The translations under genes and the position numbers were made by a program. The notes under the pieces were generated by a model. The model did not search any database. It was not told the origin of the DNA and worked only from the letters and a program-made list of their open reading frames with translations. From Rubripirellula tenax (GTDB taxonomy: Bacteria; Planctomycetota; Planctomycetia; Pirellulales; Pirellulaceae), in assembly GCF_007860125.1 (NCBI RefSeq), contig NZ_SJPW01000003.1, positions 1-64,000 on the forward strand: a DNA stretch of 64,000 nt. The letters are read 5' to 3'. Positions 28,014 to 63,038 of the stretch are shown one piece after another (within the stretch, counting starts at the first letter, position 1; every line of letters begins with the position of its first letter).

Positions 28014-28055
28014 AAGGAATAGGTTTCAGGTATCAGGTATCAGTTGAAAGGAAAA
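28014..28055 (-). repeat. Heptameric CCTNNNN array abutting actC start
   Basis: Read on the plus strand the units are AAGGAAT, AGGTTTC, AGGTATC, AGGTATC, AGTTGAA, AGGAAAA in strict 7-bp register. On the coding (minus) strand this is a CCTNNNN-type array that runs up to the ATG of actC. No complementary arm is seen near the actB stop. Confidence 0.8.
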
Positions 28056-28093
28056 CGCAGGTCGACCAGCCCAGCGGGCCGATCGTGGCGAGG

Positions 28094-32224: not shown

Positions 32225-32523
32225 AATAATACTGTCTAGCCCAACGACGCCGGCGCCGACGACAGTTCGTCGCGACTCGTTTCGCGGGAGAAGGAGTAAG
32301 AAAAAGAAGGCATCCAGTGCCCGATCGGGCCGCAGTATGGCGGTCACACTAGCAAGCTGGCAATCCCGACCAACGACCGAGCGACATTGTGTCGCACGAC
32401 TATTGCTTTGCGATGCCAAAAAAGCGGTGTTCACGCTGTCTGGGTAAGAACCGAGGGCGACCAATAGCCGGCAACCGGCATAAGCCTGCGACGCAACGAC
32501 GCGGCCGCTGATGCGTTCCAAAA
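32225..32523. other. Leader/promoter region of the respiratory block
   Basis: About 300 nt upstream of actA with no convincing gene on either strand. A small GCGACA/TGTCGC hairpin lies near 32380. This region must hold the promoter for the actA-to-oxidase transcript, but I could not identify a confident -35/-10 or sigma-54 site. Confidence 0.4.
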
Positions 32524-32881
32524 AACGGGCAACCCGATGTGGACCCGCGACGCCGTTGGCGCGACGTGAACTGCAAAGCAGCTCACGAAGAAAACACAGT
32601 ACACCCTGCGAGCGGAGTCGCAGGGCCACGAAGGGTGATCCCAAACGGGCAACCCGATGTGGACCCGCGACTCCGCTCGCGGGATGTCAGCTGCAAAGTA
32701 GCCGGCAGAAGCGCAGCGTACACCCTGCGAGCGGAGTCGCAGGGCCACAAAGGGTGATCCCAAACGGGCAACCCGATGTGGACCCGCGACTCCGTTGGCG
32801 GGATATGAACTGCAAAGCAGTTCATGAAGAGAACACAGTACACCCTGCGAGCGGAGTCGCAGGGCCACGAAGGGTGATCCG
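32524..32881. repeat. Three tandem 119-120 bp three-hairpin units
   Basis: Units at 32524-32643, 32644-32762 and 32763-32881 each begin AACGGGCAACCCGATGTGGA. Each contains a CCCGCGA/TCGCGGG hairpin, a GAACTGC-AAA-GCAGTTC hairpin (weakened in unit 2), and a CCCTGCGA/TCGCAGGG hairpin with loop GCGGAG. The first and third hairpins are inverted relatives and their loops are complementary (CTCCGC and GCGGAG in unit 2). There is no unique spacer, so it is not a CRISPR array. Confidence 0.92.
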
Positions 32882-32949
32882 CAACGGGTAACAACTTCAG
32901 CCCCGGTGTATGCTCGTAGCTATCCGAACCGAACGCGAAAGGCACCGCC

Positions 32950-46746: not shown

Positions 46747-46770
46747 CGCTCGAGACTACGATCACAAAAT

Positions 46771-46807
46771 CCTGTTACCTGTCACCTATCTCCTGTTACC
46801 TACTCCC
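46771..46807 (+). repeat. Heptameric CCTNNNN array abutting lysC start
   Basis: Units CCTGTTA, CCTGTCA, CCTATCT, CCTGTTA, CCTACTC run in exact 7-bp register from 46771 to 46805, followed by CC and the ATG at 46808. No purine-rich Shine-Dalgarno lies between the array and the ATG. No complementary arm follows the ApgM-like gene's stop. Confidence 0.88.
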
Positions 46808-52926: not shown

Positions 52927-52932
52927 CGGGAT

Positions 52933-52967
52933 AGGTGACAGGCTTCAGGTCACAGGTAACAGGTTTC
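52933..52967 (+). repeat. AGGNNNN heptamer arm after accD stop
   Basis: Units AGGTGAC, AGGCTTC, AGGTCAC, AGGTAAC, AGGTTTC are in exact 7-bp register, starting 6 nt after the accD stop. The arm is complementary over about 31 nt to the CCT array at 53046-53080. Confidence 0.9.
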
Positions 52968-53045
52968 GGGGCATAGGCACCTGGAATCCAGTTTCAGCTT
53001 GCCCAATCTGGACCTAAACTAAAGGGGGTTGAGTCATCGCTTTTT

Positions 53046-53090
53046 CCTGTCACCTGTCACCTAAAACCTGTCACCTACTCCTACTCCGCC
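53046..53090 (+). repeat. CCTNNNN heptamer arm abutting the kinase start
   Basis: Units CCTGTCA, CCTGTCA, CCTAAAA, CCTGTCA, CCTACTC run from 53046 to 53080, followed by CTACTCC, GCC and the ATG at 53091. The reverse complement aligns with the arm at 52933-52967 with only a few mismatches, separated by a 78-nt loop. Confidence 0.9.
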
Positions 53091-53999
53091 ATGAGTCTTT
53101 TCGATTCCATCAAGTCCGCGTTCAAATCCGGCCCCAGCACGGGCGGACGGATTGACGTTGCCGGACGGTTCGCCCGCCAGCGGACGGCAGTGACGGGAAC
53201 GATGGCCAACTTTTTCGTCGCGAAAGATCGCGAACACAACGACCGGATGGTCGGAGTGAAGATTCTGGATATCGAAAAGATGGAGTTGTTCGAGGCTCGA
53301 TTCAAAGGCCTGAACAAACCGTCCGAAGGCCAAATCGCGATGCAAATGAAGCATCCCAAGGTCGTCGAAACCTACGAAATCGGAACGTCGCTGAAGGGCG
53401 AACCGGTCATTGTGATGGAATACGTCGGTGGACCGAGTCTTCAAAACATCGTCGTTCAAAAGCAAGAACATCATGTGACGGGACGCCGAATGCTGATGAT
53501 TCGGGATATGGCCGAATCGCTGAAATATGTCCACAGCCAAGGCTTCATTCACCGAGACATTTGCCCGCGAAACTTCATTTGCTTGCCGGAAACGACCGGT
53601 GTCAAACTGATCGACTTCGGGCTGACGGTCCCTGCAACCGCCCCTTTTATGGTTGCCGGCAATCGGACGGGGACGCCGCTTTACATGTCTCCAGAGATCG
53701 TTCGCCGACGACCGACCGACAAACGCGTCGACATTTTCTCGTTTGGCGTGACGTGTTACTGCCTCGTTTGTTTTTTTCACCCCTGGCAGAGCGAGATGCT
53801 CAACGGGCGAGCAGCGCTCCAACACGATTCGAGGCCTCCCAAAGACCTGATCGAGCGATGCCCCAACGTCGACCCGCGACTGGCGCGGACCATCATGAAC
53901 GCGCTCAATCCCGTGGTCGAACAGCGAACGGAGGACATGGATCAATTTCTGCACGGAATCCGAAACGTCGAAAAGGCCTTCGTCGATTCGGACGCCTAA
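53091..53999 (+). CDS. Serine/threonine protein kinase
   Basis: A 302-residue Hanks-type kinase. The nucleotide-binding Lys lies in VGVKILD near residue 60. The catalytic loop IHRDICPRNF (about 150-160) and the DFG-type LIDFGLTV carry the catalytic Asp and Mg-binding residues; GTPLYMSPEIVRRRPTDKRV then DIFSFGVTCY are the activation-segment and APE-region motifs. The glycine-rich loop is weak (RFARQRTAVTGTMANFFVAK). It appears active. No extra domain or membrane helix is present, so it is a cytoplasmic soluble kinase. Its stop codon sits at the edge of the palindromic element. Confidence 0.9.
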   Translation: MSLFDSIKSAFKSGPSTGGRIDVAGRFARQRTAVTGTMANFFVAKDREHNDRMVGVKILDIEKMELFEARFKGLNKPSEGQIAMQMKHPKVVETYEIGTSLKGEPVIVMEYVGGPSLQNIVVQKQEHHVTGRRMLMIRDMAESLKYVHSQGFIHRDICPRNFICLPETTGVKLIDFGLTVPATAPFMVAGNRTGTPLYMSPEIVRRRPTDKRVDIFSFGVTCYCLVCFFHPWQSEMLNGRAALQHDSRPPKDLIERCPNVDPRLARTIMNALNPVVEQRTEDMDQFLHGIRNVEKAFVDSDA

Positions 54000-62868: not shown

Positions 62869-62910
62869 AGGAAGGAAGGCCTTAGCTATTAGGTTTTAGG
62901 TGTTAGGTCG
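62869..62910 (-). repeat. CCTNNNN-type heptamer array before rpoC start
   Basis: Plus-strand units TAGCTAT, TAGGTTT, TAGGTGT, TAGGTCG (62883-62910) in 7-bp register, followed on the coding strand by a shorter AGG/CCT segment up to the ATG at 62868. On the coding strand this is a CCTNNNN-type array. It pairs with the array at 63005-63039. Confidence 0.85.
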
Positions 62911-63004
62911 CAGCGACGAATCAAAAAGTCGTCACAAATTTCATCGCCAACGTTGTTCGCCGGCGATGCTTATCGAGAGAGGTCCAGGTTTCCGGCGTCA
63001 GTCT

Positions 63005-63038
63005 CCTAACGCCTAAAACCCAATACCTAATCCCTCTC

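Follow-up and report, generated by a model that had tools for sequence, protein, structure and literature searches.

The CCT-type heptamer arrays that precede several gene starts in the 64,000-nucleotide window analysed here (positions 1 to 64,000 of Rubripirellula tenax contig NZ_SJPW01000003.1) are probably, at a rough 60%, the arms of an intergenic element associated with genes of family PF05635, the copies in the window being gene-less, a class assignment made on shared unit and architecture only. The arrays keep a period of 7 bp, abut start and stop codons, are nearly restricted to the gaps between genes and form outward-facing inverted pairs there; they recur at the same sites in several species, pairs elsewhere enclose a PF05635 gene, and the arms diverge together with the encoded protein. 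In its fuller form the element would consist, between two host genes, of a G-rich heptamer array, a gene of PF05635 (23S rRNA intervening-sequence, four-helix-bundle family) and a C-rich heptamer array. The kinase and rpoC gaps of the window would then be gene-less copies with both arms round a core, and the lysC and actC gaps would hold one arm each.

All four arrays that an initial annotation had reported could be located at or very near the places given there. A single CCTGNNA arm (28016-28043, minus strand) stands before the start of an NrfD-like gene in the place of actC, within the gap 28014-28093, and another (46771-46807, plus strand) directly abuts the ATG of lysC in the gap 46747-46807; a second arm was found in neither gap. 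The gap 52927-53090 holds an arm at 53046-53081 (plus strand), before the start of a Ser/Thr kinase gene at 53091, and the gap 62869-63038 one at 62881-62907 (minus strand), which faces the start of rpoC. Two outward-facing partner arms had been missed: one at 52929-52963 (minus strand), beginning 2 bases past the stop of the carboxyl-transferase-like gene upstream of the kinase, and one at 63005-63034 (plus strand), facing the stop of rpoB. Period 7 is significant (p 0.001 each) in the 47-bp leaders of the NrfD-like gene, lysC and rpoC. Pfam matches of the adjoining genes are NrfD (actC place), AA_kinase/ACT (lysC), Pkinase (kinase), RNA_pol_Rpb1 (rpoC, beta') and RNA_pol_Rpb2 (rpoB, beta), and the closest LysC in the named collection is that of Rubripirellula obstinata (84%).

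The arrays also far exceed chance expectation, and their register is regular. The pattern CCTNNNNCCTNNNNCCT has 11 matches in the window, against a mean of 0.10 and a maximum of 1 in 100 dinucleotide shuffles. In the whole genome (8.0 Mb in 42 contigs) ACCTNNNACCTNNNACCT has 84 overlapping matches in 36 clusters and the same pattern read backwards has 1, so the 7-bp register is kept genome-wide. An unselected 400 kb contained CCT arrays at just 3 places, including one within a gene, which indicates that the arrays are scarce and clustered.

On its C-rich strand a typical array reads TTT-[CCTGNNA]n-CCTAYTCC(C), followed by the gene edge; in the outward-facing inverted pairs the C-rich strand runs into the neighbouring gene on either side. 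Positions relative to genes were determined for 59 arrays, 56 from the window and 20 stretches picked for holding arrays (L031-L050) and 3 from the 400 kb of unselected sequence (L051-L070), using a simple codon-usage gene caller, the stops of which are surer than its starts. All but one of the arrays are intergenic (58/59). Stops account for 24 of the faced edges and starts for 35, so that the specificity for start codons claimed in the annotation does not hold. Of the 49 arrays in gaps shorter than 400 bp, 44 point to whichever gene edge is nearer, against a mean of 24.6 and a maximum of 38 in 5000 rounds of random placement, and the distance to the edge so faced is at most 14 bp for 35 of the 49 (random mean 9.4, maximum 22). 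By a strict pattern 15 of the 29 array gaps are two-armed, all 15 with the minus-strand arm preceding the plus-strand arm. The same anatomy is found in the congeneric genome G021, where all 43 mapped arrays are intergenic (23 stop-facing, 20 start-facing), 36/40 face the nearer edge, 29/40 lie within 14 bp of it, and 15 of 23 gaps are two-armed, in minus-then-plus order in 14 of the 15. Counted with a three-unit pattern, arrays with 3, 4 and 5 CCT triplets occur 16, 16 and 18 times in R. tenax and longer ones 8 times; the corresponding numbers in G021 are 6, 13, 18 and 6. At L031:7700-8990 (about G000:C1:510.7-512.0 kb), tandem similar genes lie about 584 bp apart with CCTG arrays between them, and the leaders of both genes end with CCTACTCCCATGCAATTGATCAT, which suggests a recent duplication along with its arrays.

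The heptamer differs between species, being CCTGNNA in R. tenax and GCTAANN in G021; three successive GCTANNN units match 240 times in G021 (120 per strand) and 5 times in R. tenax. The sites are shared. Genes beside an array have an array-side orthologue in R. tenax in 16/17 cases for G011 (other genes 6/36, Fisher p 7e-8), 13/18 for G021 (3/29, Fisher p 2e-5) and 3/3 for G018 (5/16), the comparison being made with array-free genes of the same stretches because these had been selected for arrays. A sequence-agnostic test of 74 leaders of 47 bp, each at six periods, gave p<=0.01 at period 7 in 16 leaders and at the other periods in 2. Arrays precede rpoC in 5 of 18 genus members (four CCT-type, and GCTA-type in G021), and the other 13 (leaders L156-L168) have a common conserved leader with CAGGAGCAC before the ATG; PF05635 matches are present in 5/5 genomes with the rpoC array and in 2/13 without it. 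For lysC, 17 leaders were tested, and arrays of other units stand directly before the ATG in L079 and L083 (Neorhodopirellula pilleata; p<=0.005), L071 (Rubripirellula obstinata; p 0.014) and L110 (Pirellulales; p 0.004, a leader that joined the set after its arrays had been seen), and are absent from the remaining ones. The L110 units, ACTGATA/ACTGAAA, belong to the same cycle as TAACTGA. Period-7 arrays were found in 4/20 kinase leaders and 3/19 actC leaders; for actC, G011 and G021 reach p 0.03. In one operon, apparently of ribosomal proteins as judged by reading, several successive gaps carry arrays in G000 as well as in G021, the units differing between the two (L040:5709-11069 and L304:2506-7989).

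The fuller form was encountered at L031:10441-10937 (about G000:C1:513.4-513.9 kb), where a CCTG pair encloses a gene for a 121-residue PF05635/TIGR02436 protein. The protein at this locus is identical at 98/105 positions in G011, where the arms are again CCTG, and at 73/105 positions in G021, where they are GCTA (identities taken from L339, L340 and L341). The window copies enclose no PF05635 gene. PF05635 is matched 25 times in the genus (9 of 22 genomes) and 92 times elsewhere in the order (22 of 38 genomes), and 55 of these 117 loci were fetched, namely all 25 from the genus (2 of them below the family cut-off) and the best 30 of the 92. Each gene was scored by locally aligning its 330 bp upstream with its reverse-complemented 330 bp downstream and taking the best alignment, with 225 genes, all from G000, as controls; omission of the short-flank loci L376 and L385 left 53. 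The score exceeds the control 95% point at 47/53 loci and all 225 controls at 43/53. Loci of the genus, the flanks of which had been read by eye beforehand, pass in 21/25 cases, and loci outside the genus, with flanks unread beforehand, in 26/28; the set includes the near copies L340/L341 and L349/L350. The inverted-flank signal is lacking at 6/53 Pirellulales loci, among them the G011 orthologue L340, where arrays can nonetheless be seen by eye. At PF05635 flanks direct repeats are not enriched overall (Mann-Whitney p 0.23), although 10/53 pass the control 95% point. At the 15/18 level, period 7 is found at 27/53 loci against 3/225 controls and period 6 at 6/53 against 3/225. Arm length at PF05635 genes peaks at five units (22/83), with a median of 5.3. 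The closest solved proteins, 2gsc (XCC0516) and 2rld, have five chains per entry, and the 2gsc paper, as cited in PMC10053308 and PMC3936711, reportedly names five four-helix bundles in its title. At L343, L351, L355 and L359 the arms consist of 6-bp units (GTGCTC, GAGTAC and AAACTT types), and the upstream flanks of L349, L350 and L353 place, by eye, one PF05635 family beside apparent tRNA genes in G000, G011 and G021.

The enclosure extends beyond the Planctomycetota. PF05635 matches occur in 39 plasmid records, mostly cyanobacterial, of which 18 were fetched together with 1 of 3 phage records. Inverted arrays were detected (p<=0.01, mononucleotide shuffles) at 13/18 plasmid loci, eleven cyanobacterial, one of Azospirillum and one of Gemmatirosa; they were not detected at the other 5, all cyanobacterial, nor at the single phage Avd gene tested (p 0.11). 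The arms on a Pseudanabaena plasmid are GCTAAAA, the unit of G021, and those on a plasmid of Anabaena sp. 90 are CCTGTCA, the unit of the window. On IMG/VR viral contigs, 27/33 PF05635 loci pass against 9/246 control positions of the same contigs and 6/33 give no inverted-flank signal, with the short-flank locus L434 omitted and with near copies among both the hits (L430/L432, L438/L439, L442/L444/L445) and the misses (L452/L453/L455/L462). PF05635 enclosure is thus found in Planctomycetota and Cyanobacteriota, plus single loci of Pseudomonadota and Gemmatimonadota. The PF05635 gene is faced by the G-rich strand in 54/57 cases.

Arms and proteins diverge together. The 4-mer content of the arms correlates with PF05635 protein similarity (Mantel r 0.38, 0/5000 permutations), also after removal of pairs with a similarity of at least 0.8 (r 0.37, 0/5000), and nearest neighbours have an arm cosine of 0.29 against 0.13 for random pairs (0/3000); this test leaves out L344, L346 and L347, whose genes contain stops, and loci scoring 12 or less. 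Such a correlation could result from joint inheritance alone as well as from reading of the unit by the protein.

On plasmids of Pseudanabaena, Picosynechococcus and Anabaena sp. 90 (L395, L397, L401), arrayed PF05635 genes have cas genes on both sides (cas6/cas4, cas10/cmr3), a placement that may account for the listing of PF05635 as CRISPR-associated. PF05635 genes in cas loci have been noted before, in a passage that mentions no repeats (PMC3936711).

Genomes with PF05635 are also richer in arrays. At least 10 matches to three successive ACCTNNN units or their mirror are found in 17/31 PF05635-positive and 3/29 PF05635-negative genomes (Mann-Whitney p 1.5e-4), and outside the genus in 13/22 and 1/16, respectively. 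Since the genomes are related and few unit types are captured by the two patterns, we take this as supporting evidence only. Exceptions are the PF05635-negative G005, G019 and G033, with 10-15 matches, and the 14/31 positives with fewer than 10. Whether the abundance of a unit tracks the PF05635 type present was considered as well and rejected, with weak support from TTGNAAN and a failed prediction for CTTCANN. TTGNAAN arrays occur mainly in the two genomes with that PF05635 type (G021 10, G002 2, sites counted on both strands) and elsewhere in G014 (2), G001 (1) and G005 (1). For CTTCANN, G011 has 0 matches despite such PF05635 flanks, and in G014, a 74%-complete assembly with 114 matches, only a PF05635 gene of the 6-mer type was found.

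The arrays might instead be heptamer microsatellites made by replication slippage wherever coding permits, with the PF05635 genes as separate small insertions that came to lie there by chance. In most genomes with many long-unit repeats, heptamers form the largest class, and slippage has been proposed as their origin (work of Mrazek, as related in passages of PMC4679880). Unit number, a comparison of which the annotation had asked for, does vary between two species: one orthologous gap measures 155 bp in G000 and 215 bp in G011. Some arrays are long and perfect. Slippage would give, however, neither the outward inverted pairs, which are without exception in R. tenax and have a single one in G021, nor a common gene-side end CCTAYTC, nor the agreement between arm and PF05635 similarity, and we regard it as unlikely.

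Slightly less probable still is a function at the RNA level for which the pairs would be retained: a stem lying between stop and start would terminate, cut or couple neighbouring cistrons, with the PF05635 protein as an RNA-binding regulator. In favour of such a role, array gaps lie preferentially between co-directional genes (26/29 in R. tenax and 21/23 in G021, together 47/52, against 79/123 background gaps of the R. tenax genome; Fisher p 0.0004), several species have sites in common, and the transcribed strands of the kinase and rpoC gaps fold as RNA into a long stem between the stop and the next start (z -5.2 and -6.2, respectively, mononucleotide shuffles). In the one-armed lysC and actC gaps, by contrast, the transcribed strand does not fold (z 0.7 and -1.4), and most members of the genus have no array at rpoC. 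Moreover, two arms of one gap resemble each other no more than arms taken from different gaps do (the observed value is attained in 864 and in 3431 of 5000 permutations), a result that argues against selection for pairing inside a gap, although two orthologous gaps (L031b, L039) had, by eye, given the impression of a special match between same-gap arms. Known RNA families were considered too, and no Rfam match at gathering scores was obtained in the window.

Still more doubtful is translational regulation by a start-proximal, pyrimidine-rich array in place of the ribosome-binding site, the first of the two readings offered in the annotation. It would agree with the last CCT lying within 8 bp of the ATG in 13/33 start-facing arrays, and a similar role has been proposed for TAACTGA (in passages of PMC4679880). 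Start-specific regulation is rejected in view of the stop-facing arrays, which abut stop codons as tightly, and 13 of the 18 genus members tested do without an array at rpoC. Moreover, Shine-Dalgarno-like cores are rare in leaders of this genome anyway (27/132, complementary control 21/132), so that a missing Shine-Dalgarno site is ordinary. G-quadruplex elements, as proposed for the GGGNATC and GGGGAYT heptamers of Xanthomonas and Nostoc, which obey the same rule of place and strand and favour four units (in passages of PMC4692102), are the least credible reading and rejected as a general cause, since no more than GG doublets occur on the G-rich strand of the window units and the GCTAANN arrays of G021 (TTTTAGC type) have the same anatomy and no G-run.

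For the PF05635-associated element itself, we propose that the PF05635 protein would bind the arrays and help to copy or keep them, and that gene-less copies would be non-autonomous or decayed forms. The unit numbers would agree with a five-fold protein of which each subunit reads one heptamer. The second reading of the annotation, a mobile heptameric repeat that targets gene starts, was the better guess, in view of the lineage-specific units, the inverted pairs and the fuller form that encloses a PF05635 gene; as to its target, the arrays adjoin both coding edges of a gap. Its mobile part we retain as a conjecture: the element would move, but comparison of orthologous gaps by eye revealed neither a clean empty site nor a target duplication, some of these gaps being array-free but too diverged for the junction to be read.

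Terminal inverted repeats that form a stem are also a property of the intervening sequences (IVS) of 23S rRNA, and the paired arms of the element would fold in RNA into a similarly processed stem. These IVS encode a PF05635/S23 protein, and their excision is mediated by RNase III in one organism, according to passages of PMC4990558, so that array stems may be cut as well. Unlike the IVS, all array gaps examined lie between protein-coding calls and not in 23S rRNA. The likeness of PF05635 to Avd of diversity-generating retroelements has been discussed (in part of PMC10053308), but the L031 protein scores 27 bits against DivGenRetAVD, with a cut-off of 80, and the phage Avd gene mentioned above has no inverted arrays. 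The arrays further resemble MITE and REP repeats as gene-less inverted intergenic structures with many copies per genome, but differ in having tandem heptamers as ends; a transposase or target duplication was not found.

As repeats, the arrays are of a known kind. They share the 7-bp register, the intergenic position (58/59) and the C-rich strand running into the gene (44/49 at the nearer edge) with intergenic heptamer repeats. The closest likeness in period, intergenic location, inverted pairs and preference for aligned ORFs is with the STRR-like GGGNATC/GGGGAYT repeats of Xanthomonas and Nostoc, the G-rich strand of which follows stops and is the non-coding strand before starts, with 70 and 75 inverted pairs in two xanthomonads; they are described as generally unassociated with mobile elements, and PF05635 goes unmentioned in the passages concerned (all PMC4692102). 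The units in R. tenax and G021 are different, those of G021 being free of G-runs, and on inspection neither CCTGNNA nor GCTAANN has the quadruplex-able G-runs of the GGGNATC subtype. TAACTGA of marine Beggiatoaceae, Cyanobacteria and Bacteroidetes likewise forms tandem heptamers about 1 nucleotide before starts, mostly without a ribosome-binding site and sometimes reversed past stops. It differs from the window arrays in unit, and inverted pairs are not the rule there, with one indirect repeat in the main genome (both from passages of PMC4679880). The open-licence literature searched yielded no link between PF05635 and heptamer arrays, although one may have been published elsewhere; the part for which no published account was found is thus the enclosure of PF05635 genes.

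To our knowledge, PF05635 proteins have no settled function, and the heptamer repeats of cyanobacteria, xanthomonads and giant sulfur bacteria have been reported without a known maker, for which PF05635 is now a candidate factor. Their tie makes both testable partners, in that the protein gains candidate binding sites and the repeats a candidate factor, and PF05635 may be the missing partner protein of a long-known and unexplained kind of bacterial repeat. It also implies that heptamers before starts should not by default be read as regulatory sites. In a wider and tentative form, which we consider possible but doubtful, PF05635 proteins would propagate a class of intergenic elements that is spread throughout the bacteria and has arms of short, mostly 7-bp, period: each of five subunits would read one heptamer, so that arms with about five units would match the pentamer, the unit would evolve with the protein, and the STRR, GGGNATC and TAACTGA repeats would be gene-less copies.

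A repeat of another type was observed in the window at 32523-32892, where a tandem array of a 120-bp unit has 3.1 copies with 84% matches.
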